64,000 nt of DNA, from positions 71,704,398 to 71,768,397 of the forward strand of contig OU015497.1 in the NCBI GenBank assembly GCA_907164885.2, read 5' to 3'. The notes beneath the pieces were generated by a model. It saw nothing but the letters and a program-made list of their open reading frames with translations. It did no database searches and had not been told where the DNA came from. The translations under genes were made by a program, and so were the position numbers. The DNA is from Dolomedes plantarius. Lineage: Eukaryota; Arthropoda; Arachnida; Araneae; Dolomedidae. Within the stretch, counting starts at the first letter, position 1. Each line of letters opens with the position of its first letter. Positions 18,801-47,043 of this stretch are shown piece by piece.

Positions 18801-21800
18801 GCCTTCTATACTAAAGTGTGTTCAAGCACAACCATTCAAACTTTTCTTCAAATTGCATAAATAAATAAATTTACTTTTTCTAAAATTTGAAAATAAAAAT
18901 TAAAACTACAAACTTATTTGCAAATATCAAAATCTCATGAGTGTACCTTGAATAAGAAAATTCCTCAGTACACACAGATTTTGAAAAATGAATTTTCGAC
19001 TTGGCATTAGTGATGCGAAAGAAATGTTCATTTAGTAAAAATCTTTCTTAAGATTTTAAACTACAAACTTTTCCCGTGCTAGCAACATGCGGTACAAAAC
19101 TACATGACATCCACATTGACAGGAAGTTATATTCTGCAATATGTTATTCGGTAGGTTGGTGCATTAAATGCATATTTTACTTGCCATGGGTTTGTAAGGG
19201 CATAATCTCCATCGTAAATCTTAGAGAGCACCTGTATAAATCTACAGCAATCACACAGGCTAGAGCACTTGCAACATGCATCTGGCGAAACGCCATTTTG
19301 TTTTTTTTTAAATCCCCTTGCTCACGATATTCAGTCACGCATTGATATAACTCGCTTGCTCCACCTACATCTATTCATTACTCAAGATAATTTTACGCTG
19401 AGTAAATGTAATGGTAATGAAAAGTTCCAGAAACAAATGAATGGAATGGAGTTAGAGTCTACATTTTACACGCCTCATTTACAGACGAAAGATTCATTAA
19501 GAAATCCTAAGTTAAATAAAGACATTTATAGCAATACAACCTGTTCTATTTTTACAGAAAACGGACAGCAAAATATTAAAATAAAGCTGTTAACATAATA
19601 CATAAGAAAATTTTAGAATCAACTACGTATTATAGATTATTGACTCTTTATTTGACAATTTATTAATTTTTTTTATGCAGACAAAAATGTAAAACGTCAA
19701 ATTTTTCTAAACGGCCCAAGTGTTCTAATTAAGAATAATGCAATTCTAAAGATCTAATAATTAGATTTTTTTTTTATAAAACGACACAGAAAAAAAAACG
19801 GAGAAAAGTTTACTCAGATTTTTTTCGTCGAATTTCGGTCTTTTCGTAACAAAATTTATTTAGGGAAAAATAAATTTTGTTAGAAGAGAAAATAATAATC
19901 ATAATAAACGTTTAACGTCCTCTCCCAACCCTCTTTTCACACAGACCGATAAATCCCTGTTCATACAGCTGAAATCGGGCAAATACGAGATGTTCAAGAA
20001 GTAACAACACTCAACCTGTTGCTATAAAACGGCAGTAATTTAAAAGAAAAAGTGAATTAGTGTTAAATTTAACGGCCTGTAACAGCACTTGTCTGCGTCT
20101 GGGAAACAGGTGTTTAGAGGCGCACATCAAGCTTGTCAATTGTACACTTTTTTGTTCTATCCTTCTGGGTCTGTTACTTGCAACAATGAGCTGTTAAGAA
20201 TTTTAGTGTTCGCTTACAGAAAACTACAACACAAACTTTCGGATTGACAAGAACTGTGTATAAGGAGTGAGCAATGTTTGCGAGCACGGATTCATGTTGC
20301 TATTTATGTTTCACTGTCATCAGTAGATGGCACCGTGAGAAACAAGCTTTAGGTCTGAGAGGTTTTCCTAAAGCCCCTAGAGTACGCCGAAGAAAAATGG
20401 ATTCTGAACCAGGATAATTATAATCACGAATATCGGATGAATGCGACCCAACAGGCGACTTGCAGCTTGATAATCGAATTTATTGTACATCCATCAAATT
20501 TCGGGACTTTGTGAAATGCAACATTTTCCAGTGTTAAGAAAGTACTGACAGGACGAAAATTTCCTAGAAATGTTGCATTAAATAATTTTGGGATAGGTGT
20601 GTGCTGAGCAAGCAATCAAATAAAGGATTCGAACACACTTCTGGGTAGGGGTGTAACGGTCGGATCGACGTCTCCAACTGCAGGAAGGGTGTTTCGGCTT
20701 TCCTAACCGTTATACAAATTAATTTGTATTTTTATCGTGTTGATTCATAGTATTTACGTTACTTTTTAAATGACTCTCTGTGTGAGGCATCAACCGAAGA
20801 AAACTTATTGTTTAAACTACACTGCTGGCCATTAAAATTGCAACACCATGAAGGAAGGATGATACAAACTCGCATGAAAGGAAGATGTTGGGTTATGCAA
20901 ATGATTAGCATTTAAGCGCAATCGAACGACGCAGGATGGAGTAACGGCATCTCAAACCCTGTATAAAAGGAAAGTTACGCAGCAGATTTCTCACTCGGAA
21001 ATCGCATTTGAATGTTGGTTGTTTGTGAAAAGATCGTGTTATGCCTCGTATAACAATGAGAAACGGCTACCAGAGTCAGAATTCGATAGCGGCAGGATCG
21101 TGGCCTATCGAGAGTGCGGTTTATCATTCCGCGATATTGCTGCTCGCATTGGTCGGAATCCAACGACTGTCATGCGAATATGGAATCGATGGGTTCAGGT
21201 GGGTCATACTGAACGCCATGCAGGATCTCAACGGCCTCCCGCCACTAACGCCCGAGGGGACAGACATGTTGTCAGGTCGGCCTTGCAGGATTGTACAGCC
21301 ACATCACGGACCTTGAGTCGTGAGATGGGCTTGTTTGCAGCACGAGAAGTTTCCTCACGGACAGTGCGACGACGTCTGGTGCATCACGGACTGTCTGCAC
21401 GGCGACCATTATTGCGGCTTCCCTTGACACTGCAGCATAGAGACGCGTAGTGACAGTGGTGCGCCCAACGACGAAACTGGATACAGGAATCGTCTTTTCA
21501 GACGAGTCCCGGTTCTGCGTGCAGCATCATGATGGATATATCCGTGTCTGTAGGCACCGAGGAGAACGCCCGTGGCCTGCTTGCATTCGATATCGTAATA
21601 CGGTCCCTGCACCTGGTGTGATGGTATGGGCAGCCATTGGGTACACGACAAGAACACCTCTTGTTCGCGTCGTCGGTAATCTGAAGAGCCAGCGTAACAT
21701 TTCTCAGATCTGAAGGCCGGTGGCTGTGACCTATCTTCGAGGCCTCGAAGACGTCATTTTTCAACAAGATAACGCAAGACCGCAGGTTGCCCGTCGTGTT

Positions 21801-26410: not shown

Positions 26411-29400
26411 AAAGATCATCGTCTAAAAAATTCTGCCCCGTATAGCTTTCCACAGCAGGAGACCCCCACCCCATTAAGATACCTATATTTATTACCAAAC
26501 ACTACAACTTACGCAAGAAACTCGCATTCCAATAAAGACAATAGCGTCCTTTACACGTACGTTCTTTCGCGAGTGCTTGGAGCGTACGTGTAAAGGGTAG
26601 CGCCCTTTACACGTAATAGCGCGCCTCTCCGACACCTTCACACGTGCACTCAATCGCGAGGGATCATGGTTTCACGCGGGAAAGAACGTACGTGTAAAGG
26701 ACTCTATTCACCCACGTAAATTACGTCAAAGATTTGCTGCTGAATTAAGCAAAGCCGTTTATGAATTAGTACTTCGATCTATGAATAGTTATAAAAGGTT
26801 CCCTTATTCATCGAATCGCTGTGCTCTGCTGATAGGATGATTAATGAGAAATATGGAAGAGATCTACGATAGAAATCACCAATAGACATAGCGATTCAAG
26901 AGAGAGAAGCAAGCGAGAGTGGTGTACTGGTTGAAGAAAATATTTTTTAGGTATGTATCATTGTGAGCATTCATTCCACTGGACGATATGACGAATTGTA
27001 CTATCTGTTTTAACCTCACGTCAGACTACGTACGCAGGGTACAGTCTACACTAGGGAAAGAACAGCACTGTTTTCAATCCAGTATAATGAGTACACTTAA
27101 AATGTTACTAGAGGAACGAATGGTTTGTAGAATATGACCGTGACCCTCACAAAAATGATAACTATCCTTATAGACATTTTTAACACTAAGGTGCTATTGT
27201 TATCACTTACACAGATTCGCGTTTTTGCCCTTTACAAGCGACGTTTAAGAGCTTAAGAAAAGATAATGAATTTATTCAATAACACCTTTGGGCGTCTTTA
27301 ATGTCTCGAACAGTTTTTTTTCAATAGTTTATTTATTTAAACTTTAAATCCATTTTAAATAATTGTCTTTCACTGATGCGTTTGAGAACTGAATGCACGG
27401 GAAGGAACAATCGGAAATTCTTTTTGAGCTATTGAATTTGCTTTCCAATACTGCTCTGCAGTTACAGTAGTATAACAATGAAAAAATTACGATTAATTCC
27501 ACTAAAATAAGGCAGTTGGACGCAGCGTATCACATCTCAACTCTTGCATAAGCGAAAGGCAAAACATCTTGCTTTGAACACAGAGATTTAATTAACTGTT
27601 ATAAAAATGCACACCAGAGCTCCACGTGTAAAAGGCATCCATTCTATGCCCCCTCCTTTTTTTTCTTGCATGTGGTTGCGTAAGTGCCGTTGCGTGGAAC
27701 TAGGGGAGCTCCGAAAACTCACCAATGCAAGTAACCACAAGTCGGTTTCAAAAACTAATTAAAATCCCGTGACGAAAAAAAAGAATGTAAAAAATTCTCC
27801 CATGTATGAAAAAGCCTCTTTTTTTTAAAATATAAAATCACTTTAAAGTATTTAACAAATGTGAAGGGAATTTATATAATTCTTTCATTGAAAACAGCAT
27901 AGAATGTCATATTTGCTGATGCATTTTGAATCGGAGGGTATCAGATGCCAAATTTCTACATTCATGAAATTCCTAGATTTGGGTTGACCTCACTTAATTA
28001 AATTATCAATAAACCTTAGTTCGCGCGATGGTAAACACAAATGAATACGACAAACAAACGGATGTGCCAGAGAACACAAAATAAACATATATAGAAATAA
28101 CAATAGATTATGAACGCGAAAATCTTTTAACGTAGGATTACGTTATTCCATAACGGTCCTCCTGAAAGCAAAATTTATGACGCTAAAACCGTCGTCGCGA
28201 GTTATAAATCAAGAGTGGCTTATTATCAAGAGTAACTTATTTTTCTTACTTATATGTAACTTATTTTCCTTACTATCGACCTATTATGCATAGGGTTACC
28301 ATTCATACTTCTTGTATGTAGGAATTTTATTGTTTAAAAAAAAAAAAAAAAAAAAAAGAGAGAGAGAGAGAGAGGTAGGCAACGATAAGTAATCCTACGT
28401 TAATAACCCGCGGTAGTTTCGTTAGAAGAGACTACCTGAAATTTTTTTTTAGCAATTTTACACAGCCAAAATTTTAAAATTAGCAAATAAGGAAGTACCA
28501 CGCAGTATATCATATATCAAATTGTGCATTAACGAAGGGTAAAACGTTTATAGTAGCTAAACGCTTAGATTAGTGAAACTCGTATAGAAATGCATACCAG
28601 AGCTCCACGTGTAAAACGCATGGCAGCCATTTTCTTCCCTTTTTTTAAAGTGGTGGCATAAGTGACGTTCCATGAAACTACCTAATTCTAAAGCGCGGCA
28701 TCATTGCCACTCACAGAGATCGTCTAATTAAAAAAAAATATGTAAATAAAATTTTTTTTGTCATTTTTGTTAATTACTAAATTTAAAAGGTAATAAAAAT
28801 TAACACGATTGTCTTTCATAGACTAAAGGAAACCTTGGCCCCTATCCTTGGGTCCCTCTAAGAAAAATATATTTTTTATTGTTACTAACAACTGTTCCCT
28901 CAATCTGAAATTCGGATCTTGCACATATATTCATAATTGTATTAACTGAAAACTAATCTTTACCCCCCCATATTTTCCGAATTTTTTTTTCCCCGACGTC
29001 ACTGGTTCATACAACTCTATGTGTATGTGTGAACACGAATATAAACTATTTCATGAACTGAATAAATAAAATACTCCGCTTTGTGCTATTTATCTCAACT
29101 ATACATATTGACATATTTTTGTCGTCTATTTCTGTGCGTATATACAAACTCAGCCGACGGGGAAAAAATCATAAAATCTCTTTCATCATTGTAACGGTTG
29201 AAAATTCATTATTACCCCAGTCAAAATAGACCCAATTTTGCCGAATGGCTAAAAAAAATATGAAAGTTTTGAAAATGGGTGAAGATGTTTGTTTGGGCAT
29301 ACTGTTGAACCTACTAAAAGTCCCCACCGATCAGACTTGAGCTTTCGGCGCCATCTTGGAAAATGTGTAGACTTTTTTGGTTTTTTGCAAGTAACTTGGG

Positions 29401-31851
29401 AAATATTGATTTTATGCAAAAAAAATTTAGTACAAAAATTGAAGAGCATTAAACTATGAACAAAAACATCATTTACATTTTTCTTATAAGTCTAACACGA
29501 ACAAAGATAATTGACTTTGAAAGGAGCGAATTATCACACCTGGGACGCGGATGCGCGGGTCATCCCCACCGCGATGGGGGGGATGACCCGCGCATGCGCA
29601 CCAAAAGTCTTGCATACTCACGTTTGTCAAACCTCTGCATATCAAAGCTCGAGAGAAAGTTGCAGCAACATCCAATCCATTGTTATCAGATTGTATTGTG
29701 AGGTTTGGTGGATTCTATCTTTTTATGACATACTTAGGCTGCATTGGGTACATAATGGCTGGAAGTGGGCTAAAATAAATACTAACTTTGATGTATGCAA
29801 CGGTAAAAAAAATGTTGCCTGGCCATGCATACGCTAGAAAAATCCTAGCTAATTTAATTACCCAAACAGCTTTAGCAAAAATAATTTTTGACGCCATGGA
29901 CATATTTGATTTCTACACCGTGTCAAAAGGGGTACACAATTAACTTTTTCGGCTGTTTGCACAAATTATGTTAACTATATAAAAAAGCAATATGGGACCA
30001 GCTGTGAAGTCATTTTTAATGGCTAATCCAACACCACTAACTGTACAAAAAAATTGAACAAAATCTACGGTCTATTGTGAAAAAATCTGTAGACATAAAA
30101 TTTTAATGGAAACATGAGAGTTACTGTTCAACAAGAACAGTTCCTTTCAATTGAAAACAACAAGAGCAAATTGATCAGCATGGTATCAGCTGAGCTGGAA
30201 AACAATGGGATTCGATTCCGACAAACTAATGACGACGCCGACATTCTCATTGAAAATACTACAATTAATAAAGCATATTCTGGTAACAGCATCCTTATAA
30301 TGATCGGTGAAGATGTTGACGACCTGGTTCTATTAACAGCTCTCACTACTACAGAAAAAAGACATTTTCCTTGTCAAACCATGCAAAGGGAAAGCAAAGA
30401 AAAAATATATTCATCAAATAAAATACAATCATCGAGATATACCAAAGTATCGTTTTTTGAAAAAATTTTCCAAAGTAAAGATATGGCACAGTATAGAACG
30501 TGACAGTAGTTAATAAATGCAACTCGTCGCACAATGATGTTGCTCAGCCGGAGAATGCTTTTTCTGATCTGGTATGGAGCACATTCCAGTGAACAGTCCC
30601 TAAAAAAGTTTAAGTTTAAGGTACAAATGCTTCGCAAAATTTGTCACTAAAATAAAACCATATATTTCGTCTCTTTCCTGAACTGAAGAGGCAGCAAGAG
30701 CAACATTTCTTTCGGTTGTATCACCAAGTGCAAAAGTGGTTTGGGAATGAGTTGAATCCTGAAGTGTGGGGCTGGGAACGTCACGAGAAAACCCTCGTGC
30801 CCTTCACAACTATGGATGCAGTGGCTCCCGATTCAGTTTTAAGTATGGAGTTTTGCAACTGTAAAGCTATGTCCACACTTTTGCGTTCGCTTTCGCTTTC
30901 GACATGTCGCACGGAGAGAGAAATGTGAGGCATGCTCAGAGCGATGCGTCACCACCTACAAATTCCAGGACAGCGCATGCGTCGCGATAGAGCATGCGAT
31001 ATCGCAAGCGTATCCAACCAGAGTGGATTTTCTTGCGGAATTCCATGCACTTTTCTATCCTGTAAGGCAGTTTTTAAGCCAGTGTTCAGAATGTCGCAGT
31101 CTTCGGAAGAAATTTTAAATTTTATTGATGATTACAGAAATTTACCGGCACTGTGGGATGTCAACCACTCCGCATACACAAATAAAATTATTAATACATT
31201 TAAAATAATTATTTAATAATAATTAATGTGTATTGTTTTAAAATAAAAACTAAATGTATTTTTAAACAAAGCAAATTGAAAATTTTTTTGAAAACTTGTA
31301 CTATATCATTGAAATTTTCTTTTTGAAATACAGGGAGAAGATTTCAAAAATATGCATCAGCTCATTTGTTACTATAAAAATACTGAATAAAAAATTCCCC
31401 ACAGCTTATCATAGGAATTAAAGACCCACTTTGAAAAAAAAAATAGATGTTTTAGTATTATAAAATCAGGTTACAACCTGAATTCGCGTGACGTAATTTC
31501 ACCCCCCCCCCCATGTCATGCATTGCTTGCATCCAAATGCGTATGATCTTGCATGTATCATTTTCATTTGAAGATAAATATCATCGACACATTTTAAATG
31601 TACGCATTTTTTAGTCCATCATGGTTTTCTCGTCGTGTTCTTCATTTAACCCCATATTAAAGAAAAATGAACAATTTTCAATAATAACAAAATATACTTC
31701 TTAACTTCTTACATATGTAGAAATTTTTTTTTATTATATATGAAAATTCAAAAGTAATTCTTCATGGCCCGCTTTGCTCAGAAAAGAAATAAATGTCTCG
31801 GTTTAATTCATTACATTATATTAAAGAGATTACTTACTTTCTCACTCACTC

Positions 31852-31948
<97 letters not shown>

Positions 31949-33943
31949 TATGATTAGCTAACGATTTTTCTTGAATATTCTGTATACTTCAAAAGTAATA
32001 TAAATGTTCCTTTTATTCAGAAATGAATTAATACAGAGGCTGTTCGCACATTTTTTAGACGATTTTGGTAAGCGGTAATAAAAAAGCGTTTGCTGCAAAA
32101 GAAATAATTGCAATTGTACTATGTTTTTAAAAGTCAAAATTATCGTCTACGGCTTGAAAGTTTTGTTTTTATTCAAAATTGCGTTTTTAACAAAGCAGTG
32201 GTTCGAAGGCTACATTTATGCTCTTTCCGAAGAGAAATATGCATACTCCGTTATCCAAAAACGATGTGAGAGTCATGGTTTTGTGATATCTAAAGCGTCG
32301 ATAGGTAATATCGTCAACAAGAAAGGGAAAAAAACGTCAAATTGGAGCCTCAAGTGGGACAAAAATTCCAAACAAGTATCCAAGGAAAAAGCGGACATCT
32401 TCGACTATTGCAAAGGTACGTTGTTTAATGTTAAAAGAAAATCCCCCTAGTCAAAGGACAGTTGCAAAATCATTAAAATGCTCGGTGTCCACTGTAAACA
32501 AAATGATAAACGTTGATTTAAATCTTAAGAAAGCGAAAAAACGCAATGTGCATCATCATCTTCCAAATCATATCGCTGAACGCAGGACACGCTGTAGAAA
32601 CACTTATCGAAAGAAACATTTCTCCAAAGAACATGGTATATGAGAAACACTTATCCAAAGAAAAATGGAAAACAACTGTCACAATAGATGAATCATGGGT
32701 GTAATTAAATGATTGCAACAAAAAAAAAGAGCCATTTATTATCATAAAAGGGGAGAAAAAAATTTAAGTACATGGTTCAAAGAATCGAAAGAAAGTTTTT
32801 CTAAGGGATTCATGATTGTTGCTGGTTTTTCTTATAATGGCAAGTTAAAAATAAAGAGAGTGGAAAAAAATGTCAAGATTAACTCCAAATACTATCAGGA
32901 ACATATTTTATCGCCAATGTTTCTGAATGAAATACCATCGCTTTACCCACAGTGCCATCAATCTGTGAGACTCCATCAGGACAAAGCTAGCAGTCACACA
33001 TCAAAATCCACTGTAAATTTCCTAAAAGAAATGGAACAAAAAACTGGTATCAAGACCATACCCTTCACTGATATCCCTACTAAATCTCCCGATGTATCAC
33101 CTATGGATTTTTGTGCTTTCGGACTTTTAAAATCTGCATTATCCAAACGTCGTCCCAAAACCCTTACAGGACTCTGGAAAGCTATTCAGGAGGAATGGGA
33201 TAGAATATCTCTTCTGACACTTCAAAAGACATTATTATCCTGGAAATTGCGGTGTCGAAAGATAGTTCAGAATAAGGGATGTCAAATAGAACATTTAAAA
33301 TACAAGAATTTTATGTAATTTAGTTTTGTGAATACAATATACATCGTCTAAAAAATGTGTGAACAGCCTCTGTATACCAGTGTAATTTACACTATATATT
33401 TAAGAGATAGAATTTTAATAACGAGCAATATTCTACCGTTTTCTATTCTTAGTATTTGTTTAGTTTTATTACTTCATAAACTAAGCTATAAATTGTAGTT
33501 CTATTTCTAATAAATTGGCATATAAAAAAACAGGTCTTCTCTATATACCATATCACCAGTTATTAATTTCTCTATCAAACTACATTGATGTAGAACAGGG
33601 GTGTCAAACTCAAAGGCTACCTTGGGCCAAACAAACAAATAAATATATGCATTTCGTTTAATAATAGCAAAAAAAGAGTATCATTAAAAAAACATTTAGC
33701 GAATTCTTCCTATTTTATTATAATTCTGCGTCGGTTATTTTATTATATATTATTGTGTGCCAATATATTGGCCGGGCCGCAAAAATGTTCGTTGCGGGCG
33801 AGTTTGACACCCCTAATGTAGAACCTACGTGTATAAGAAAAACCATCTCTAATCGATTACTGTGGTATTATATAAAAAACATTATGTTTAAATTTATATT
33901 TATTTTTTAGTCTTCTCATTTAGATCATTTTCCCCTGTACGTG

Positions 33944-34018
<75 letters not shown>

Positions 34019-37000
34019 GAATGATAAATATGCAAGTAGAGGGATTATACATATTTATATACAGAGCACCGTACCAAAATTGTAGTCTATTCTTGTTGCA
34101 CATTCCTTGTTGCTTTACGTAAAAATAGTCACCTTATAAACTCCGCGAAATCACAAAAAACGCAGCAGTAACCGTCCGACTCTTCCATCTCGTGATTAAT
34201 GAACTGTCGAACAAGTGTGGACAACAAATTGAATGCGTCTAGAGGCATACCGGGAAGCATGGGCTAAAAGCAAGTTGAAAGGAAAGACGAACCGCAAGTC
34301 GAAAGCGAAATTGAACTCGAAAGCGCAAAAGTGTGGATATAGCTTTTGACTGACTGGGGAGAAAGATGCGTGTGTCGGAAAGCATGCATCAATTGCACAA
34401 CGCCCTGTAATAACTGCAATGTGGTATGTCACAATGACATACCTCATTGCAGTTATTGCACTGTAGATCATGACGATTCATTAAAAGGAATTGATGAGGT
34501 GATACTAGATGACCCATAGACGATCTTTTCAAGACTGACGACGCAAACAATCCCGTATCGAATAAAGGACGTCAATCACAAAGTAGGTAAGCTTCAAAAA
34601 TTATACACAATGAAAATATGGTAGTGAATAAATCCAAGTTTATTACATTCGTTTATAAAATTAATAATGATCAATTATCTACATACCAAAAACATTAAAG
34701 TCTATATTCTTGTGTTTAGAACACCGCAATGAGGATAAAATAAGAGGAGCATCAGAGGAGACAATTCAAAGTAAAGCGCCTGCAACGAGACTTAGACGCT
34801 ACCTCCATAATCAACGAGCCTTAATATACGATAATTTAATAGTTAATATTTTGGTTCGTATTAGGGTTACGACAAAATGTATTTAATATTTTTTGTACAC
34901 AGTTTAATGTTCTTTAATTTTTGTATTAAACTTTTATTACATAAAGTTAATATGTCCCAAGTTATTTGCAAAAACATAAAAAAGGCCTTCAAAATCTCTA
35001 AAGAACTTATGGAGATTATCACTTATGAAATCAGATATGTCCATGGCGTCAAAAATTATTTTTGCTAAAGCTGTTTGGGTAAATAAATGAGCTAGGATTT
35101 TTCTAGCGTATGCATGGCCTGGCAACATTTTTTTCTACTGGAGTAGTTACATACATCAGTTAGTATTTATCTTAACCCACTTCCAGCCATTATGTACCCA
35201 GTGCAGCCTAAGTATGGCATAAAAAGATAGAATCCATCAAACCTCACAATACAATCTGATAACAATGGATTGGATGTTGCTGCAACTTTCTCTCGAGCTT
35301 TGATATGCAGAGGTTTGCAAGAATTTTGGTGCGCATGCACGGGTCATTCCCCTATCGCGGTGGGGATGACCCGCGCATCCGCGTCCCAGGTGTGATAGTT
35401 CGCTTCTTTCAAAGTCAGTTATCTTTGTTCGTGTTAGACTTATAATAAAAATGTAAATGATGTTTTTGTTCATAGTTTAATGCTCTTCAATTTTTGTACT
35501 AAATTTTTTTAAACATAAAATCAATATTTCTCAAGTTACTTGCAAAAAGCCAAAAAAGTCTACACATTTTCCAAGATGGCGCCGAAAGCTCAAGTCTGAT
35601 CGGTGGGGACTTTTAGTATGTTCAACAGTACGCCCAAACAAACATCTCCACAAATTTTCAAATCTTTTATATTTTTTTAGCCATAAAACCTATTTTGACT
35701 GGGCTATAATAAAGAACTTCTGAACATTGCAAAAGAAAACACATTTGGCCACATAAATTTCTAAAGATAAAATATATACCTTAAAGTACAATTCCAATAA
35801 ACCTGGTTAACAATGGTGATTGCCTTTTTACGTTTGTACGTACTTTCCCGATAGAAGGTTCTTAACATAAAGATACCAAGCAATTTTTACCGTTATACGT
35901 GTATACACATTATACATTTACAAGAACCCTAAAATCTGCGCAAGCATTTATCTCTAAAACTATTTATGCTAAGTAAAAAAAAATAAAAATCACTTCCTGT
36001 TCTAAAACCGTTAAATTTAATGACTCTTAATCAAATACTGTTACACTTGGAGATGACTTTGAAATGAACTAGGATATTTTTGCAATATAAAAATTCATTT
36101 ACACTTAACTGCAAAAATAAAAAGATCCACCATTTGATATCAAGTTATACAGTTAATACTCGCATTATGAGAACACTGAATGAGGCATATTTACTCTTTA
36201 TACTACAAAATAGCTTACACAGGAGCTGTTTTCAACAAAGAGGTTAAGGAGTATGTCGTCATTCGTTTTATTCTGGGACAGGGAATAAAATATTAAAAAG
36301 AAAAGAAAGCTAATATATTTTTGTTTACAACCAACATTTTTAGTATATAAATATAGTGGACATGTCTGCAACAGAGATATATCCTGTATATATATACTAT
36401 TTATATACATTAAATCCACTGTTTTTTAGATAGAAAAAGAAAAAAAAATTATGTCTGCGGAAACTGACATCCTAAGAAATTATTCATGGAAATTAGAAAA
36501 TAACAATTGAATAAAAGTATTTACAGATTAGATTAACATCCAAACACAAGCCTAAATTTGCCTGAAACTGATTTAGAAAGAATAGAAAGCCTAGGGAAAA
36601 AAAGGAAATTTTACGAAAGGGATATCTATAAACGGACAGCCCACCCTCCCCGCCTACGCACATGTTTGAATTTTCTAATTTTGATATAACATTTGCATTA
36701 ATCTAAACCATTACAATGTAAGAAATCATTCTCAAAATTTGAATCCATTGGATTAAGAATCACTCCAAAAAGTTCTACAACTACAGTTTATAAATAATCA
36801 TGAAATATATACATATGTTCATTTTTATAATTTTTTTTTTTTCATTTAGCACCTAACAGTTTGAAATCACTACATTAAACGCACAATTATCTGAATTGAA
36901 ATTAAGCTATTTCTGGTAACTCATTTCTATTTGGGACGATCTGATTTAAGAACTACGTTCCTTTAAACAACTACTTTTTGGTCCAAATCAAAACAAAACT

Positions 37001-37309
37001 TATAATAGAAGATAATTTTTACTGCGAGAAAATGTTGATAAAAGTTACCGAGAAATCTTACTCATTAAGCATACCTGTATTTATGAAATTAGCGCACAAT
37101 ATTAAATCTGATTGTGCGAATGACTAAGTTTCATTTAAAAGAATACTTCCTTATTTACTAGCTAAAATAATATTCTCTAATAATAGAAAAACAGCGTATT
37201 ACTAATCAGAATTCTCAAAATTTTAAGGGTTTTTTTTTCATGCAACAATTAAAGCAGATTAAGAAAACACAGTAGAAAAAAACAATGCAAAATATTGAAA
37301 ACTTACCAT
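145..37309 (-). CDS. boule: boule/DAZ-family RNA-binding protein gene, 5' part (exons at 37307-37309, 4291-4407, 299-390, 145-199)
   Basis: Minus-strand split gene for a germline RNA-binding protein of the Boule/DAZL family. In animals these proteins bind mRNA 3' UTRs through one RRM and promote translation in meiotic germ cells. The visible exons encode a Ser/Pro-rich N-terminus (SPSPVAPNAP), the family-typical stretch TLIPNRIFVGGIAAN with RNP2 (IFVGGI), the middle of the RRM (LFAAYGNVKATKIILDRAGV), and RNP1 (KGYGFVTF). Every visible junction has a GT donor and an AG acceptor, and codon phase is kept (0, 0, 2). The rest of the RRM and the DAZ repeat must lie left of base 1. The first exon is inferred from a phase-matching ATG at a splice donor 33 kb upstream. 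If it is wrong, the start lies elsewhere, but the RRM exons are secure. Confidence 0.85.
299..390 (-). CDS. boule: boule exon, middle of RRM
   Basis: Ninety-two bases encode 30 residues starting TTESELHSLFAAYGNVKATK and continuing through ILDRAGVSK, plus two bases of a Gly codon finished in the next exon. The acceptor is TTTTGTACAG above base 390 and the donor is GTGAGT from 298 down. The segment is helix 1 to strand 3 of the RRM. The phrase DRAGVSKGYGFVTF is diagnostic of Boule/DAZL proteins. Confidence 0.92.
391..2567. other. boule intron 2, left part, no gene seen
   Basis: AT-rich intronic DNA. I see no further exon, RNA gene or recognisable mobile element in this stretch. Short open frames here are not supported by any protein similarity I recognise. 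Confidence 0.6.
2568..3779 (-). mobile_element. Tc1/mariner-superfamily transposon, DD36E type
   Basis: The terminal inverted repeats are about 28 bp: CTCAAGAGCCAAAACATTAT at the left, mirrored by a right end finishing TGTGGCTCTTGAGTG. They lie at TA dinucleotides inside a TA-rich microsatellite. The internal minus-strand gene is a Tc1-type transposase, broken twice. The element is about 1.2 kb, near full length for the superfamily. It sits in boule intron 2, in the same orientation as boule. Confidence 0.93.
2597..3632 (-). pseudogene. Tc1-like transposase (DD36E), frameshifted, with one in-frame stop
   Basis: Reads from MGKAADLINFDRGQIVMPRR near 3632 through a paired helix-turn-helix DNA-binding region (ETARLVGCSRPTIVSTYAKW, then a second HTH around VAQLTAQYNAGPSRIVSQHT). 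The catalytic core has D in WSDESRF, D in FQQDNAPCH and E in SPDLNPIEYIW, and the product ends at RAKGGPTRY. Thirty-six residues separate the second D and the E, counting the stop as one residue. A frameshift lies near 3205-3225 and a TGA near 2823 occupies the position of a conserved Trp before PPNSPDLNP. The copy cannot make a working transposase. Confidence 0.92.
3780..3859. repeat. Compound microsatellite (TA)n then (TTTA)n
   Basis: About 54 bases of alternating TA followed by a TTTA tetranucleotide run. It abuts the right end of the Tc1 element, and the left flank is also TA-rich. The transposon, which targets TA, therefore probably landed inside the microsatellite. Confidence 0.97.
3860..4290. 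other. boule intron 2, right part
   Basis: AT-rich intronic sequence between the microsatellite and the RNP2 exon. Nothing recognisable apart from the splice donor of the exon at 4291. Confidence 0.6.
4291..4407 (-). CDS. boule: boule exon with RNP2 and Ser/Pro-rich N-terminus
   Basis: One hundred seventeen bases, exactly 39 codons in phase 0. It starts STSSAEGSGSLSPSPVAPNA, then PKFGTLIPNRIFVGGIAAN. IFVGGI is RNP2 of the RRM. The TLIPNRIFVGGI phrase and the preceding SLSPSP tract are hallmarks of Boule/DAZL N-termini. The acceptor is TCTTTCCAG above 4407 and the donor is GTAAGT at 4290 down. No in-frame ATG exists within the exon, so the start codon must be on an upstream exon. Confidence 0.93.
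4408..5148. other. Intronic DNA upstream of the RNP2 exon
   Basis: AT-rich stretch with no coding exon, RNA gene or repeat that I can name. Confidence 0.55.
5149..5453. mobile_element. hAT-type MITE, 305 bp, 8-bp target duplication
   Basis: The ends are TAGGCCTGCACAAC and, on the other strand, CAGGTCTACACAAC. They are flanked by a perfect 8-bp duplication ATCTAGAC (5141-5148 and 5454-5461). Eight-base duplications and this style of short imperfect terminal repeat are typical of hAT elements. No transposase fragment is visible inside. Confidence 0.88.
5462..9013. other. Intronic DNA without recognisable features
   Basis: AT-rich sequence. Several short open frames occur on both strands but none matches a family I know. 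A run of 12 cytosines is at 7833-7844. Confidence 0.5.
9014..9228 (+). repeat. Dispersed repeat family A, copy 1
   Basis: Shares several blocks with a second copy at 28125-28450: an opening TTAACGTAGGATTA, a centre containing ACCGTCGTCGCGA followed by TTATAAATCAAGAGTGGC, and an end TTAATAACCCGCGGTAGT followed by GTTAGAAGAGACTACC and a T run. The last part can fold as a hairpin (GGTAGTTTC against GAGACTACC) followed directly by Ts. I do not recognise the family. Confidence 0.85.
9236..9835 (-). mobile_element. hAT transposon fragment, 3' half with transposase dimerisation domain
   Basis: The 3' terminus CAGAGCTCCGCAACC is at 9236. On the minus strand, from about 9815 to 9625, the conceptual protein contains FWILVKKEYPQIYDKAMAIL, then LLPFSTTYLCERRFTTLVLI and KGLDHELRVALL. 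This is the C-terminal dimerisation region of hAT transposases of the ZBED5/FAM200 type, where the usual motif is LPFxTTYLCExxFS. The 5' part is missing; the fragment appears to end near 9835. It cannot encode a working transposase. Confidence 0.82.
9985..11119 (-). mobile_element. hAT transposon, internally deleted, 1135 bp
   Basis: The left end is CAGGGGTTCTCAAACTT and the right end, read from outside, is CAGCGGTTCTCAACCT, a classic hAT terminus. The perfect 8-bp duplication CTTTACAG occupies 9977-9984 and 11120-11127. The minus strand at 10484-10750 retains part of a ZBED5/FAM200-like transposase (HLAALQNEIADYFPDIS, then WEFKLTRDPFKINVDILPD). Most of the catalytic region has been lost. The interior starts with a 12-base C run at 10047-10058. 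Confidence 0.93.
10484..10750 (-). pseudogene. hAT transposase remnant (ZBED5/FAM200-like)
   Basis: About 88 residues on the minus strand containing HLAALQNEIADYFPDIS and RDPFKINVDILPDHIQKQAI. In hAT proteins of the ZBED5/FAM200 group this segment lies shortly before the C-terminal dimerisation domain (commonly an LQxEIxxYFP phrase, then a W/F-x-x-NPF-like phrase). There is no zinc finger, catalytic core or dimerisation domain here, so this is a relic inside the deleted element. Confidence 0.75.
11532..12051 (+). mobile_element. Deleted mariner/Tc1-like element, 520 bp
   Basis: The ends are CAGGGTGAGAAAAAGTCCCT and, from the right, CAGGGTGCGCAAAAAGTCCC, flanked by TA. The plus strand near 11728-11935 retains the transposase C-terminus: FFLWGYLKEKVTSTNPG, a stop, then LKDNIRAETAQITPVTVQKV and NSNGGHL. 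FFLWGYLK follows the third catalytic residue in this transposase group. The first two thirds of the gene are gone, so the copy is non-autonomous. Confidence 0.88.
12052..13456. other. Intronic DNA without recognisable features
   Basis: AT-rich sequence. Open frames of up to about 90 codons occur but show no domain or family signature. Confidence 0.5.
13457..13555. repeat. Short inverted-repeat element, 99 bp
   Basis: The ends are GGATGAAGTTTCAGC and, read inwards from the right, GGATGAAGTTTAGC. An internal ACCATCC to GGGTGGT pairing surrounds CACCCGATAGGGTG. The whole unit could fold into a hairpin. It is either a tiny MITE or part of a larger repeat; I see no target duplication. Confidence 0.5.
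13556..15331. other. Intronic DNA without recognisable features
   Basis: AT-rich. It holds two C homopolymers (13713-13724 and 14784-14796), the second followed by a short AAAC repeat. No gene is seen. Confidence 0.5.
15332..15536 (-). mobile_element. tRNA-Glu-derived SINE
   Basis: On the minus strand the head starts near 15536 with CCCACATCGTATAGTAGTTA, then GAGCTTTCGC in the anticodon-arm position and AGATTCGAATCTC as the B box. This order and wording match tRNA-Glu (CCCACATxGTCTAGxGGTTA, then a TTTC-containing anticodon arm). An unrelated body follows and ends in an A run, visible as Ts at 15332. The acceptor stem does not form, so this is a SINE and not a tRNA gene. Confidence 0.75.
15537..20817. 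other. Long intronic stretch, no gene recognised
   Basis: AT-rich DNA. A frame at 17891-18109 is less AT-rich than its surroundings but matches nothing I know. A short hairpin lies at about 16568-16608 (CCCATAGAGCTATAAA against TTTATAACTCTATGGG). No exon with credible splice sites was identified. Confidence 0.5.
20820..22188 (+). mobile_element. Tc1-family transposon, DD34E, 1369 bp
   Basis: The terminal inverted repeats begin CACTGCTGGCCATTAAAATT and continue GCAACACCA. Left and right match perfectly for 29 bp and then diverge slowly over about 10 more. TA flanks both ends (20818-20819 and 22189-22190). The plus-strand transposase is nearly complete but frameshifted. Orientation is opposite to boule. 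Nearly identical ends suggest a fairly recent insertion. Confidence 0.95.
21041..22020 (+). pseudogene. Tc1 transposase (DD34E), several frameshifts
   Basis: Starts MPRITMR at 21041, then shifts frame into RLPESEFDSGRIVAYRECGL. The paired HTH region includes FRDIAARIGRNPTTVMRIW. The catalytic residues are D in VFSDESRFCVQ, D in FQQDNARPQVAR and E in SPDLSPIENIW, with 34 residues between the second D and the E. The reading frame changes near the N-terminus, near 21440-21470 (after the second HTH), between about 21690 and 21730, and after about 21900. The catalytic residues are kept but no single frame connects them. Confidence 0.92.
22191..24000. other. Intronic DNA without recognisable features
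   Basis: AT-rich. No coding exon, RNA gene or named repeat is seen. Confidence 0.5.
24002..24644 (+). mobile_element. pogo/Tigger-type element, 643 bp, deleted
   Basis: The left end CAGAAGAGTCCCGATAATCC and the right end, read inwards, CAGTGTAGTCCCGATAATCC, are flanked by TA. The plus strand from 24275 keeps the C-terminal tail of a Tigger-like transposase: MDLKDPVNVSDESEGEADGD, an SHSDAAAAFDVALR stretch, then after a frameshift YLDSSEGYSSLRHKK. Such acidic tails followed by a short helix are usual at the end of these proteins. The catalytic domain is missing. Confidence 0.88.
24646..26545. other. Intronic DNA with one TA microsatellite
   Basis: AT-rich. The only feature is a (TA)n run at about 26376-26407. 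No gene is recognised. Confidence 0.5.
26546..26702. mobile_element. Foldback/MITE-like unit with two nested palindromes
   Basis: The outer inverted repeat of 23 bp reads GTCCTTTACACGTACGTTCT at the left and is mirrored at 26680-26702. In its interior, ACGTGTAAAGGG and CCCTTTACACGT form a second 12-bp palindrome around five bases. Outer and inner repeats share the core CCTTTACACGT. The unit is GC-richer than its surroundings. I could not fix a target duplication. Confidence 0.7.
27500..27735 (+). repeat. Dispersed repeat family B, copy 1
   Basis: A block including CCAGAGCTCCACGTGTAAAA followed by a T-rich tract and a segment with GCATGTGGTTGCGTAAGTG. It recurs, diverged, at 28490-28705. Family unknown. 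Boundaries are approximate. Confidence 0.6.
28125..28450 (+). repeat. Dispersed repeat family A, copy 2, with internal expansion
   Basis: Same opening (TTAACGTAGGATTA), centre (ACCGTCGTCGCGAG, TTATAAATCAAGAGTGGC) and end (hairpin GGTAGTTTC/GAGACTACC followed by Ts) as copy 1 at 9014. Here TAATCCTACGTTAA near the end is the exact reverse complement of the opening. About 110 extra bases, including an A run and a (GA)n run, sit in the middle. The copy lies between the two copies of family B. Confidence 0.85.
28490..28705 (+). repeat. Dispersed repeat family B, copy 2
   Basis: Diverged relative of 27500-27735. It shares CCAGAGCTCCACGTGTAAAA and a downstream GTGGCATAAGTGACGTT corresponding to the first copy's GTGGTTGCGTAAGTGCCGTT. 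Boundaries are approximate. Confidence 0.6.
29216..29912 (+). repeat. Left arm of long inverted repeat
   Basis: Matches the reverse complement of 35024-35703 over nearly its whole length. It contains a GC-rich palindrome near 29552-29595: GCGCGGGTCATCCCC pairs with GGGGATGACCCGCGC across about ten bases. This is striking in an AT-rich setting. The inner end reads as MLPGHAYARKILANLITQTA on the plus strand, a phrase also kept in the other arm. Confidence 0.88.
31091..31216 (+). pseudogene. MADF-domain fragment
   Basis: MSQSSEEILNFIDDYRNLPA then LWDVNHSAYTNK. This is the first helix and turn of a MADF (Myb/SANT-like) DNA-binding domain, whose usual pattern is FIxxYRxxPxLWdxxxxxYxN. The frame leaves the homology after about 32 residues and stops at 31216; the rest of the domain is not found. 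It is the only coding relic that could belong to the 30863-34346 element itself. Confidence 0.62.
31841..31948. repeat. Compound microsatellite (TC)n (TATC)n (TA)n
   Basis: Three successive simple repeats: TC to about 31884, TATC to about 31920, then TA. They lie between the MADF fragment and the mariner insertion. Confidence 0.97.
32034..33372 (+). mobile_element. rosa-like mariner element, DD41D, 1339 bp
   Basis: The inverted repeats CAGAGGCTGTTCGCACATTT through AGACGAT are mirrored at the right end (with GTGTGAACAGCCTCTG), both flanked by TA (32032-32033 and 33373-33374). It has a plus-strand transposase gene. It is nested within the 30863-34346 element, so it is younger than that insertion. 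Confidence 0.94.
32121..33318 (+). pseudogene. mariner transposase of DD41D (rosa) type, frameshifted, with one in-frame stop
   Basis: The N-terminal part around 32190-32430 includes a helix-turn-helix region (YAYSVIQKRCESHGFVISKA). After a frameshift near 32420-32440, LKENPPSQRTVAKSLKCSVS follows. The catalytic residues are D in TVTIDESWV, D in LHQDKASSHTSKS and a third D in SPDVSPMDFCAFG. Forty-one residues separate the second and third D. A TAA at about 32702 directly after DESWV interrupts the frame. The final 200 residues (from 32713) are open to 33318. The DD41D signature is that of the rosa clade of mariners. Confidence 0.92.
33596..33815. mobile_element. hAT MITE, 220 bp, 8-bp target duplication
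   Basis: The ends CAGGGGTGTCAAACTC and, from the right, TAGGGGTGTCAAACTCG are flanked by the perfect duplication ATGTAGAA (33588-33595 and 33816-33823). It contains CTTGGGCCAAACAAAC and a matching GGCCGGGCCGC near the right end, typical of this MITE type. No coding capacity. It is nested in the 30863-34346 element. Confidence 0.93.
33948..34018. repeat. Compound microsatellite (AC)n (AT)n
   Basis: A long AC run followed directly by an AT run. Confidence 0.97.
34520..35023. other. Spacer between the CXC relic and the right inverted arm
   Basis: AT-rich. On the minus strand the frame running out of the arm continues as FISDNLHKFFRDFEGLFYVF, which the left arm does not share. Function unknown. 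Confidence 0.45.
35024..35703 (-). repeat. Right arm of long inverted repeat
   Basis: Reverse-complement copy of 29216-29912, with many single-base differences and small indels. It keeps the GC-rich palindrome (near 35330-35385, slightly mismatched) and the terminal CCCAGTCAAAATAG. Confidence 0.88.
35704..37300. other. Proximal part of putative boule intron 1
   Basis: AT-rich. No exon, repeat or mobile element recognised before the splice donor at 37306. Confidence 0.5.
37307..37309 (-). CDS. boule: Putative boule first coding exon (ATG only)
   Basis: On the minus strand the sequence reads TTGAAAATG then GTAAGT. The ATG ends exactly at a consensus splice donor and has an A at -3. Exon 4291-4407 starts in phase 0 with no ATG of its own, so this exon would supply precisely the missing Met, giving MSTSSAEGSG. 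The exon continues upstream as 5' UTR past the AGAACTGCGCATCAAAAGAA region. The phase match and donor are seen directly; membership in boule is inferred across a 32.9-kb gap. Confidence 0.6.
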
Positions 37310-37830
37310 TTTCAATATCACTCTTTTCTTTTGATGCGCAGTTCTCGGTAATTACTGAAAGTATCTTCCAAGCCGATCAACTTAAGTAATCCATTTGACA
37401 CTGACGGCGCAGAACACATCGGATCGCATGTCACATTTACAAGTCTCGATAATTATTAATTCGAAAAACTTCAAAATCTATTCTTTACAGCTAGACTTTG
37501 ATAATGACAGCATGGAATTGTCGAAAATTAGTACCACAATTAAAAAAAATTACGTCCCAGGACTTAATGTAACCCACTTACTTCTGGCAGAGAGACAGAG
37601 CTTCAAGAAATAAATTTAGCTCAGTGTTCATTTCTTCTGGTGACGGTATAGCAGAGCTTTCTTCGCGCTCTGCGGCTAGGAACTCTACTACGCAATGACA
37701 AGGACGAGAACTTTAAAAATAGGTAAAAGGCCCGGGAAGCACTGCCGTGTAGTGTGCATTTCTTCGAAGGGGAAAAGGCAGAAAAAGCTCCCCACCTGCT
37801 CGCGGTGCTAAATCCCCAACTTGCCACCTG
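37310..37830 (-). promoter_or_regulatory. Candidate boule 5' UTR and promoter region
   Basis: Upstream of the putative ATG exon the base composition rises above the surroundings (37620-37800 has GCGCTCTGCGGC and GGCCCGGGAAG) before returning to AT-rich DNA. I cannot place a TATA box or initiator. The call rests on position and composition only. Confidence 0.35.
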
Positions 37831-38819
37831 TCTTGATTTTTTATTTATTTTTTAACGTCTGATGAAGTAGCAGACGATAGTAGCTTTCTTCCTACAACAT
37901 CCGAATTCCCTAAACTGTATTACGTAAGAAATCTAAACATCTATAATAACGGGAAACATTTCATACCAGTAACTTAGATATATTATGTTTAACTTTTTTC
38001 ATTTTACTTACCTCAAAATATTTGAAAACATGTAGAGAAATTATGTTTCAATGTGTTCCTCCTTTATCGTTGATAAAGTCTTCACGAAGAGTAAAATATT
38101 TTATTCTCTTCCACACATGTGCTTTGAAACGAGGAGGATACGGGTTTCAAGAGATAATTAAACGAATCGCATGCATAATTTGCAGTGTGGTAATCTAATT
38201 TCAACCCGCACTAGATAAATATTGATACACTGTATTTTTACAATTAATAAGAGCTGAGTAAATTCTGAAAAATAACTTTCAGGAACACTTATAAAGAATA
38301 AATAAGGGATTTTAATGACGATACAATAAGTTATTTGTTGAACTTATATCGAAATTTTAGTTAATACAATTATAAAGAAATAATCCAATAAATTTGATAC
38401 ATATGAAATGTATGAGTGGAGTTTATTTACTTACAAGAATCATACATAAATTATAAATTGCTCTTTTTTTTCTTTACAAAACTTTTAAGCTAAATTTTAA
38501 AATTAAAAAGACCACCAATAACCCTTTGGGTCATCCACTATCTATAGATGATGAAAAATTCGAACTAATTGCGACACTAGACTTCAGAGAATGTTTGTTT
38601 CAAGACAATTTCATCAAATATTTCAACCTACTCAAGTTATTAATGATTCAAGAATCGGAATGAATCCATTGCGTTTTCTTCCTTCCACGCGTGACATCAC
38701 TTACCTCATTGTAGTTCCTAGTTAAGGGAAATAAATTTTCAGCTCAAGTAATAATTCGGTCATATCTCTGAAATTTCCCACGCCCTCCTGATAACTCGGA
38801 ACTTCTCCAACCACAATGG
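37831..38819. other. Intergenic DNA, nothing recognised
   Basis: AT-rich stretch between the candidate boule promoter and a hAT element. Confidence 0.5.
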
Positions 38820-43666: not shown

Positions 43667-45660
43667 CTAGCGAATGGGTTTAATGTGGAGGGAGTAGTTT
43701 GTTTTATATCTATTGACTTCGGTAATTAGATGTAAGGCTGTGTCATCAACATAGAGGGCAAATGATGTGTTAAGGGTGGCAGGGATATCATTTATAAATA
43801 CGTTAAATAAAACCTGTAAGAGTTTCAAACCTTGAGGAACACCCACATTAACAGGGTGTAGGGCTGACATGGTACCAGAATTGCTTATAGCAAAAGTTCT
43901 GTCCGAAAGATAAGACTGAATAAGTTTAATTAGAGCAGCTGGCATTTTAAATTTAATGAATTTATAGATAAGGCCGCTGTGCCAAACAGAGTCAAAAGCT
44001 TTTAGCATGTCAAAAAATACAGCGCCAGTCTGCATTCTGTTCTGTAGTCCATCATGGATGTACTCAGTAGCACAAAGCAGGTGGAGTTTGGTAGTGTTTG
44101 GTCTGAAACCAAACTGGGCATTTATGAGGTTATTGCTCCAGATAAACTTATTAATATGGTTACAGAAAATGTGTTCAACCACTTTAGAAAAGGAAGATAA
44201 AAGACTTATGGGCCTGTAGATTTTAGGAATGGATGGATCCTCACCAGGTATCAGTTAAGTAGTTGACATATTGAAAAGGGAGATTTTTAATAGCATTATG
44301 CTGATACTGTCTTGACTAGGGGCTTTTCTATTAGGAAGGGAGTTAATCGCAGTTAAAACTTCACTTACAGTGTTTTTTTCGATCTCACTACTATGATTTC
44401 TGAACAGAAAATTTTGGAGGATATCATGGACTTTATCAATTGCACTTGGTCAGAAAGCACTAGAATGGGGGTTGAATTCGGTTTCATAATTAGCTGCTAA
44501 GGCCTCAATTTTGTCTGAGTCACCAGTTAAGATTCCAGAACTGGAGTTAAAGGTCGGAAAGGGTATATGGGGTTTCCTAATTCTTTTAAGGTATTTCCAA
44601 ATTGAGTTATCAATGGGAGCTAGTGACTCAATAAATTCTTCCCATTTATTATTTTCAAAATTTTTTATTTTAATTTTAACCTGGTATTTGAGATGTTTAT
44701 AATTACTATGCATTCTTGGGTCCTGAGTTTGCTGCCAAATTTTCCTGAAATAATTCCTCTATTTAATTAGATCAACAATGTAATGGGGTAGTTTGTGATA
44801 AAAGTATTGGGGGGAGTCAATCTTAGCAGATTCTAACACACTTTGGATGGTATTAGTGATAGAGATAACAGCAGCGTCTATGTCATCAGGACCGTTAATA
44901 TTATCAAAGGGTGAGGGGTGGGGAGTTGTTTACAAATTTAGTGAAGGACTGCCAGTTAGTATGGAAAGTAGGAATAATACAGGGGAGCAGGGGGTTGCAG
45001 TTAATATCTAATTTAACAGGTAAGTGGATAAATAATTAATAGTATTAATCGCATAAGCATAGTTCATGTTGTTTAAGAGGGCAAAGTCAATGATAGATTG
45101 GGAGCCTGAAACAACTAACCTGGTGGTGTAGAGTGGGAGAACAATATCTACAGAGTTATCTATTGAGTAAGAATTAATTTCAGTACTGCATCTAGTTACT
45201 GAACGGTCACTCTGGCAATTCAAATGGGGGTGAGCGTTAAAGTCACCAAAAAGTATAACTTTATGGTCCAGATTAAAAAGCTGAGTAAGTTCATTAGTTA
45301 CAGGTCTACCATCAGTAATTAAGTAAGTGGAGACAAGGGTGAGATTAGTGCTAGTTTATCCAAATTTTAACAATTGTGTTTTCTATAGTATGTAAGTTAA
45401 GGCTGGGGAGATGGTTATATTTAATATTTCATTTGACATAGATCGCCGTACCACCAAAATGTACGGGAGCATTAGTATTAGGGTCAAGACAGGGAGTGAA
45501 GTACAAATTGTAGTTTTGAATTTTAAGAGTTCTGGGGGTGGGAGACTTCACTTCCTGTGCCAGAAAAAGATCTACTTGGTTCTTGATAAGAAACTCTAGT
45601 AGCTCATGAATATGTGTACTCAAGCCATTAGCATTACAACTCAGAAATTGCAGAAGTAGA
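43667..45660 (-). pseudogene. LINE ORF2: APE endonuclease and reverse transcriptase, broken
   Basis: The N-terminal endonuclease piece reads LLEFLIKNQVDLFLAQEVK, followed by GGTAIYVK. Next come fragments around SIIDFALLNNMNYAY (45223-45008) and a pre-RT region (KWEEFIESLAPIDNSIWKYL). The reverse transcriptase has NAQFGFRPNTTKLHLL, motif A FDMLKAFDSVWHSGL, the motif B region VGVPQG, and the catalytic box FALYVDDTALHL. The active-site box is YVDD. Several frameshifts, a stop at 43667 inside the post-RT region and missing segments make it non-functional. Confidence 0.9.
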
Positions 45661-47043
45661 GGGGAGCATTAGGGAGCAGAGGAGTTGGCTGTCTCTTGTG
45701 AGGCAGCAGAAAGTATGTTATTTATTGGTTGGCTGTTTAGTTTATCAACTAAGTAATTAAAATCTGAAATATTCATTTTGGTGCAAAGTTGTTTTATTTC
45801 TTTTAGGATGTCCCTAATTTTTAAAAGTTTATTTAGAGTGCCGTCAAGGTTTCCCATTGGCAATGCACTAGATGTTTGAGTTTCAAGAGTATTATCAACA
45901 GGAGTTACATAATTAATGGTTTGTTCAGTCGTTATTGTGGGACGACAGGAGTTATTGGGTTTAACAGCCTGGCTATAAGATATTGTGGAATTTATCGGTT
46001 TGCTAGCAAAGGTATTTCTTGCAGTCATTTGGACAATGAGTTGGGGAGAGTAATTACCGGCTTTGGCCACTTCCTTAATGGTTTTTATTTGGTTGTGTCT
46101 AAGTTTAACCTGCTCCGGGTGAGCACTGCAACCTCAGTAGTTCGCTGGGTGGTCATCATTACAGTTAGTGCATTACCTGAGTTGTTACACAGTTTTGTAC
46201 AAACTGAAGATGGCACCTGCACACCCAAACAGTCTGTAGGAGGCAAACTTCACTACTGTGATGGAATTTTTGACAGTTGAAACACTGTTTGGTACCTTTA
46301 GATTTGTAGACTTTAACTCTAACAATGAAACCTAGAAAGTGTCTTATTATCCTTTTGGAAGGTACTTTTGGATTGTTCGAAATTGCTCAAATGTGCTGGG
46401 TGTTATTTTGAGAAATTGTCCTGAGACAGTTTTGGGTCGGTTGAAATTAATTAACATGTTGATGTTGGTAATAATATTTTAGTTTCTTGAGAGCATTTTA
46501 ATGAAATATGGCTCTGGGTTCTCTTTTTTCTGGGGTGGAATCCTCTGTTCCCCAAAATTCAACATCTGTAGCTTCTTCCTCTAGGGGAGCAAATTTGTTA
46601 CTGGTCCCAATGGCATCTGATTTTGCTTGATTTAGAATATTTTCATGAGCTACCTGCTTTATTTGTGGTTTGCTATTCTCAGCATTCCTTCTATTTTTGA
46701 TAGATTTTTTAACTACTGGAGTAGTAGAAAATTTACTGACGATAGTGACTAAATTTTTAAAACTCTCTAAAGTAGGACCACGCACAAAAGCAACAATGTA
46801 CTTCCACATACCTTTAAGTTTGTTGAGCTCAAAGTCCTGGTCTATACCAGTTCAGTTTCAGTAGGTTCCCAGAATCTCATCAATCGATTGAGCAGTGAAA
46901 TCAAGTGACTCCGTGCAATCCTTATATTCAGGAAGGTCATTTCTGCAGACTTTGAAGAAGGTCAGGCAAATATGCAAATCTTGAAGTTCAAGATAATCAG
47001 GATCAAGGTGTGAAAACATGGTGGCTGGATCAGAAAACAAGAT
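45661..47043 (-). pseudogene. LINE ORF1: gag-like protein with CCHC zinc knuckles, broken
   Basis: Fragments in order: MGLILFSDPATMFSHLDPDY (47052-46858), an Asn/Lys-rich middle (46809-46498), the knuckle region at about 46290-46080, and a C-terminal part ending QETANSSAP. The first knuckle is canonical, CFNCQKFHHSSEVC (C-x2-C-x4-H-x4-C). A later one reads CNDDHPANYRGC. Jockey gag proteins carry three such knuckles. Frame changes occur between the fragments. Confidence 0.85.

Follow-up and report, generated by a model that had tools for sequence, protein, structure and literature searches.

A recurrent mobile unit with coding sequence in its inverted arms and a disabled nuclease gene in Dolomedes plantarius, probably a non-autonomous derivative of AcademX-type transposons

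The locus and its recurrence across the genome

We analysed a stretch of 64,000 nucleotides of the Dolomedes plantarius genome (contig OU015497.1, positions 71,704,398 to 71,768,397 of the forward strand; hereafter the window), in which an element at 29213–35706 consists of two long inverted arms around a broken gene with a PIN-like nuclease core and a Cys-rich CXC tail. The arms align between 29216–29913 and 35703–35027 with 31 substitutions in 669 aligned sites. Their match scores 964 bits, while 20 two-base-block shuffles of 27000–38000 reach at most 46.4 bits, which rules out inverted arms arising by chance. The arms of ~690 bp named in the original prediction are thus real, and comparison with other copies places the true ends 3 bp further out (i.e. 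TAC at 29213–29215 and CTA at 35704–35706), giving an element length of 6494 bp. The predicted gene is also present between the arms, broken and in pieces, with its tail split off by an insert of ~3.5 kb (Table 1); the NDDADILIENT and LIMIGEDVDDLVLL motifs lie at 30111–30350 and are followed by a frameshift. Neither arm is a plain terminal inverted repeat (TIR), since each continues inwards into codons of this gene, a feature that the original prediction did not mention: the inner part of the right arm (35334–35030) is an inverted repeat of coding part A, and matches to protein P0009 reveal that a more upstream portion of the protein is encoded in both arms (E-values of 7e-29 at 29596–29910 and 9e-18 at 35334–35030). 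The best P0009 match on the reversed window has an E-value of 0.057, among 10 control matches under 0.5.

We searched the whole genome (2.78 Gb, 390 contigs) with the left arm and obtained 2456 first-look candidates, 40 of which were scored as arms, most of them full length and matching at 89–93%. Twenty loci were then fetched from among the best arm matches. Both arms are present and inverted in 14 of them, on many contigs, and the nuclease segment is found in 18; in the other two (L021 and L028) it is absent from the fetched stretch, and about 1 kb inward from the tip is common with other copies. Counts of complete copies below take in the window copy and 14 others (n = 15). Apart from the window copy, complete elements are 3426–4980 bp long, and their ends read TAC- or TAG-CCCAGTC, or variants with no more than two mismatches (TAT in L017). 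Of the 15 complete copies, 12 are flanked by an exact 3-bp target duplication (ACT, TTG, TTT, TAT, ACA, CAT, ACA, AAT, AAA, AAA, GTG and TTA), and none has a 4-bp identity; the same count is 0 or 1 at shifted positions and averages 1.2, with a maximum of 5, for permuted flanks. Because the unit recurs with 3-bp duplications outside its ends, the arms are the termini of a gene-carrying mobile element, which the original prediction had put forward conditionally, and 29213–35706 is one copy of a recurrent mobile unit.

Two earlier placements of the ends were discarded. With the ends set at CCCAGTC, the candidate target duplication was only TA, or 5 bp with one mismatch, and the true ends emerged from the other copies. 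An extension of arm homology beyond CCCAGTC was likewise rejected, as other copies have only TAC/TAG in common there. Random window pairs reach the score of the 40-bp sequences outside CCCAGTC in only 1.6% of cases and shuffles in 2.1%; part of this similarity comes from the conserved TA immediately beyond.

The gene is broken in all 15 complete copies, which have one stop codon in common, while another is common to 11 of the 12 copies that cover its position; the gene is therefore a passenger. P0009 matches in the complete copies span only residues ~45 to ~212 and those to protein P0004 only ~1 to ~447; across the copies, the same two stretches of protein have no match. Compared with the 1490-codon frame of a fuller relative (L036, see below), the two copies listed (L012 and L023) are without the residues before ~588 and those at ~759–979, which removes the DNAD (432) and DMIIEQ (838) motifs. 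On the gene strand, no stop-free stretch is longer than 263 codons, and the one of that length (in L024) lies between gene segments. The common stops indicate that the founder of the family was already dead, and the window unit is a non-autonomous derivative whose own gene is disabled. The 15 copies are not independent, because L016 and L020 have nearly all stops in common and are close copies; their flanking triplets differ (ACA and AAT), so they are separate insertions.

The window copy has further damage of its own. A deletion of ~463 bp at 29913/29914 shortens its left arm, and no match to the GCDT-motif segment was found upstream of its coding part C. The large insert in the CXC codons postdates the element, since the site is empty in all 14 other complete copies (L013 and L026 are without ~11 bp there); no clean target duplication was found around this insert. 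It contains a MADF-like open reading frame (ORF) at 30929–31216 and, within the nested Tc1/mariner-like element, a DDE_3-like ORF, both scoring below the Pfam cut-off. Within the left arm, the stretch at ~29359–29489 resembles the TIR of a fuller relative (L035; 64.7%, E-value 1.6e-8). The arm hairpin folds as DNA with a z-score of -7.0, and self-complementary matches occur at its position in 18 of the 39 other scored arms; it could bind a transposase or be a small old insert.

Table 1. Positions of the parts of the element and its inserts in the window
Feature	Position	Strand	Remarks
Left flank triplet TAT, candidate target duplication	29210–29212	.	Right-hand counterpart TAA at 35707–35709
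Left arm	29213–29913	+	Starts TACCCCAGTCAAAATAG; inner side truncated by deletion
Non-coding terminal part of arm	29213–29531	+	Presumed true TIR
GC-rich hairpin	29547–29599	.	Separates terminal and coding parts of the arm
Coding part A	29596–29910	+	Matches P0009 residues 45–149; contains the stop common to 15/15 complete copies
Coding part B, Rad2/XPG/FEN1-like (PIN-like) nuclease core	29913–30440	+	Stops, and frameshift near 30350
Coding part C	30604–30865	+	Between nuclease core and CXC tail
Insert in CXC codons, ~3.5 kb	~30864–34346	.	Contains MADF-like ORF and Tc1/mariner-like element
Tc1/mariner-like element nested in insert	32031–33375	+	33-bp TIRs, TA at both ends
CXC (Cys-rich) tail	34352–34519	+	Same gene
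Remnant of presumed original 3' TIR	34826–35001	-	75% over 178 columns against inverted 29356–29531
Right arm	~34990 (inner edge) to 35706	-	Ends GACTGGG-CTA

The window also contains other repetitive sequences outside the element. Tc1-like transposase fragments occur at 2822–3719 (-) and 20905–21450 (+), a reverse transcriptase fragment at 43667–44254 (-; RVT_1, E-value 1.7e-25), likely of a non-LTR (long terminal repeat) retrotransposon, and PIF1-type helicase frames, possibly Helitron-derived, at 62227–63733 (+). An interspersed repeat is present in two copies (9014–9227 and 28126–28448) that are 82–96% alike in two blocks, and an open frame at 45669–46133 (-) has no match above the cut-off.

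Relatives with open frames and the nuclease family

A search of the genome with P0009 yielded 6061 candidates, 143 of which were scored, and several of the scored places have long open frames. Two loci (L033 and L034) are 99.3% identical over ~6.06 kb, each with one 1641-codon frame and TIRs of ~365 bp; L035 has a 1319-codon frame and TIRs of ~331 bp, and L036 a 1490-codon frame and a 146-bp inverted match at its ends. These four elements are 5859–6066 bp long and have the same kind of ends as the derivative family, i.e. TAGTCC or TAGCCC in the fuller relatives and TAC/TAGCCCAGTCAAAATAG at the derivative tips. Four of the five fuller loci fetched are flanked by duplications (GAT at L033, CTA at L034, TAT at L035 and the 4-bp GTCT at L036). 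L036 lies in a satellite array (L036:1–1148 and 7008–7501), whose uninterrupted units at 468 and 7167 of the locus have the site with a single GTCT, i.e. an empty target site.

In an alignment of L033, L035 and L036, the long frames share the motifs DNAD, TFDQPLY, LGGFH and DM-IEQ, followed by the nuclease and then the CXC tail. DNAD, FDQ and DM-IEQ are invariant in all three frames, while Cys-rich N-terminal fingers are present in two. The nuclease and CXC tail thus make up approximately the last third of the long protein and are preceded by a conserved region whose DNAD, FDQ and DM-IEQ motifs may represent a D/D/E arrangement. The original prediction suggested, on condition that the arms are termini, that the main protein is a putative nuclease rather than a standard DDE transposase; this is unsupported, because the gene of the unit is a broken passenger and the longer protein of its fuller relatives has this D/D/E-motif region before the nuclease.

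A Rad2/XPG/FEN1-type nuclease fold is supported for the related protein P0004, whose nuclease region aligns in the L033, L035 and L036 frames. The acidic motifs DGG, FDGY, DDAD, GEDVD and GCDT were located in order in P0003 and P0004, by comparison with the active-site motifs of FEN1. Both the fold and the motif order are found in relatives and not in the window copy. The database searches had the following outcomes: (i) no Pfam-A model lies above the cut-off for P0001–P0005, P0009, P0010 or the L033 and L035 frames; (ii) an NCBIfam search revealed no relative of the PIN-like/CXC protein family above the cut-off; (iii) no solved structure in the PDB matches the proteins tested in sequence with a meaningful E-value; (iv) 22 stretches of viral contigs fitted the P0001 pattern and none is a relative, nor is any of 595 found in prokaryote genome contigs; (v) a long read-through query gave 139 candidates, none significant; and (vi) Rfam and tRNA scans yielded none. 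Two PIN-like/CXC relatives (P0002 of Mythimna loreyi and P0017 of Ignelater luminosus) are annotated as 'hypothetical protein'. An unmodelled protein family is thereby tied to mobile elements, and such hypothetical-protein genes probably belong to transposons and encode a flap-nuclease domain, rather than being host genes. Since this genome also contains relatives whose frames are open, the role of the nuclease can be tested.

Origin of the arms and alternative explanations

Among the other complete copies (n = 14), alignment of the arms stops at 709–749 bp on the left and 713–742 bp on the right, and in most of them the inner limit of the left arm is near GAGATTTTG. In L012, the only copy whose right side was read out, the right arm has GAGATTTTG and then a TIR-like stretch. 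A diverged copy (~75–81%) of the terminal part of the arm adjoins the inner side of the right arm in the window and other copies. At their very tips, the left and right arms are told apart by the same columns in 11–12 of the 14 copies; all but one of the 17 diagnostic columns fall in the first 32 bp. The tip next to the gene's 5' side exceeds the one at the 3' side by 10 bp in L033, by 9 bp in L035 and by 10 bp in the derivative. The right arm looks like a 5' end, and on the simplest reading an inverted copy of the 5' end (TIR plus coding sequence) took the place of the outer part of an original 3' TIR, apart from its tip, before the family spread. In two of the 15 copies (L013 and L026) the left- and right-type tips have exchanged places with respect to the gene, which suggests recombination between the long arms; alternatively, the tips alone may have been converted. 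By comparison of its copies, the derivative shows how TIRs can grow to include coding sequence.

We consider it highly probable that 29213–35706 is a decayed copy of a non-autonomous DNA transposon family derived from an AcademX-type parent and moved in trans. The parent would have had TIRs of a few hundred bp (as in L033–L035, ~330–365 bp) and a single gene whose product joined a transposase to a Rad2/XPG-type nuclease and CXC tail. From this gene the derivative would have lost approximately two fifths at the start and a section in the middle, and its outer 3' TIR would have been replaced by an inverted 5' end (i.e. TIR, hairpin and ~300 bp of coding sequence) with the original 3' tip kept, probably through template switching while the gap left by excision was being repaired. 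The resulting unit of ~3.5 kb, with ~740-bp arms and a dead gene, would then have been mobilised in trans by a full-length relative, with 3-bp duplications as the result, and the window copy would afterwards have lost ~463 bp and taken two nested inserts.

Several observations weigh against this explanation. The fetched loci come from the best arm matches and are not a random sample; three of the 15 complete copies (L011, L013 and the window copy) are without an exact duplication, and at the window copy the flanks TAT/TAA agree in two of three bases, making the duplication there only a candidate. A fifth open-frame relative (L037, 1282 codons) has ends that could not be placed, and the structure model of P0009, which covers part of the D/D/E region, is too poor to use (predicted local distance difference test score, pLDDT, 44.5). 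The protein of the fuller relatives is only ~28–57% identical to the two derivative copies examined (L012 and L023), and for this reason a direct helper with near-identical ends was not found among the fuller relatives fetched. The parent type fits AcademX by description, which makes membership likely and not proven.

An alternative concerns the parent alone: the fuller relatives might form a superfamily of their own apart from Academ, with an XPG-type nuclease fused to an unrelated transposase. The failure of Pfam models and solved structures to match these proteins is consistent with this, and the available description of AcademX is second-hand and short; against it, a nuclease and 3- or 4-bp duplications are traits given for AcademX there (PMC10045372), and we regard a separate superfamily as unlikely. 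A bolder version, in which the long frames belong to an undescribed superfamily whose transposase-fused XPG/FEN1-type flap nuclease processes the element ends while defective relatives copy the 5' end together with its coding sequence into the 3' TIR, also has a small chance of being correct; if it were, the lengthened arms of the defective relatives would be long enough to flip the interior by recombination.

It is very improbable that the unit is a self-sufficient transposon with the PIN-like/CXC nuclease as its own protein and no DDE-type transposase. The gene and arms do travel together (14 of the 20 loci) and the nuclease fold is supported; against this stand the stop common to every complete copy, the same unmatched protein stretches, a longest stop-free stretch that falls between gene segments, and open-frame relatives that encode a larger protein. 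The weakest alternative, hardly credible, is that two repeat copies landed by chance in opposite orientation (which the original prediction had offered as its own alternative) or fused tail to tail once at the window locus, where the right arm, seen in the window alone, does resemble a second 5' end joined to a 3' TIR remnant; it is refuted because the inverted arrangement is found again in 14 of the 20 loci, spread over many contigs, because 12 of the 15 complete copies have duplications, and because copies have left- and right-specific tip differences in common. A fusion might instead have been the single founding event of the family.

Comparison with known transposons

The duplications and ends argue against several well-known superfamilies. 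PIF/Harbinger elements duplicate TWA, a pattern that the 12 duplicated triplets taken together do not follow. Tc1/mariner elements duplicate TA and hAT elements 8 bp, and neither fits identical flanks of 3 bp in 12 of 15 copies, with the TA inside the conserved end TAC/TAG. The nuclease of AcademX elements is of the XPG type.

According to the portions of the literature available, AcademX elements encode a nuclease and make 3- or 4-bp target duplications (PMC10045372), Academ is placed among the DDD/E superfamilies (PMC9587614), and bivalve Academ elements have a mean length of 5565 bp (PMC10294476). As far as these partial descriptions go, our elements resemble them in (i) the nuclease encoded by the fuller relatives; (ii) duplications of 3 bp in the derivative and L033–L035 and of 4 bp in L036; and (iii) the length of L033–L036 (5859–6066 bp), near the bivalve mean (PMC10294476). 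The family in the window differs in being a gene-dead derivative with 740-bp arms. No description of it was found in the open-licence full texts searched. The candidate 'undescribed mobile element' of the original prediction is thus borne out for the derivative, within that literature, and not for the parent type, which fits AcademX. In brief, the derivative is probably a new non-autonomous family, of unusual anatomy, within a known kind of transposon.

Finally, the family can be set beside Rad2/XPG/FEN1/Exo1 nucleases, Ds-like deletion derivatives and long-TIR or foldback-like elements. The nuclease of the relatives differs from Rad2/XPG/FEN1/Exo1 proteins in its fusion with a transposon protein and a CXC tail, and in having D-x-D in place of their E-x-E. 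With Ds-like, long-TIR and foldback-like elements the family shares ends as in fuller relatives, internal deletions, a dead gene and many copies; it differs from them in arms that include coding sequence, seemingly grown by copying of the 5' end, and in tips that are swapped relative to the gene in two of 15 copies.

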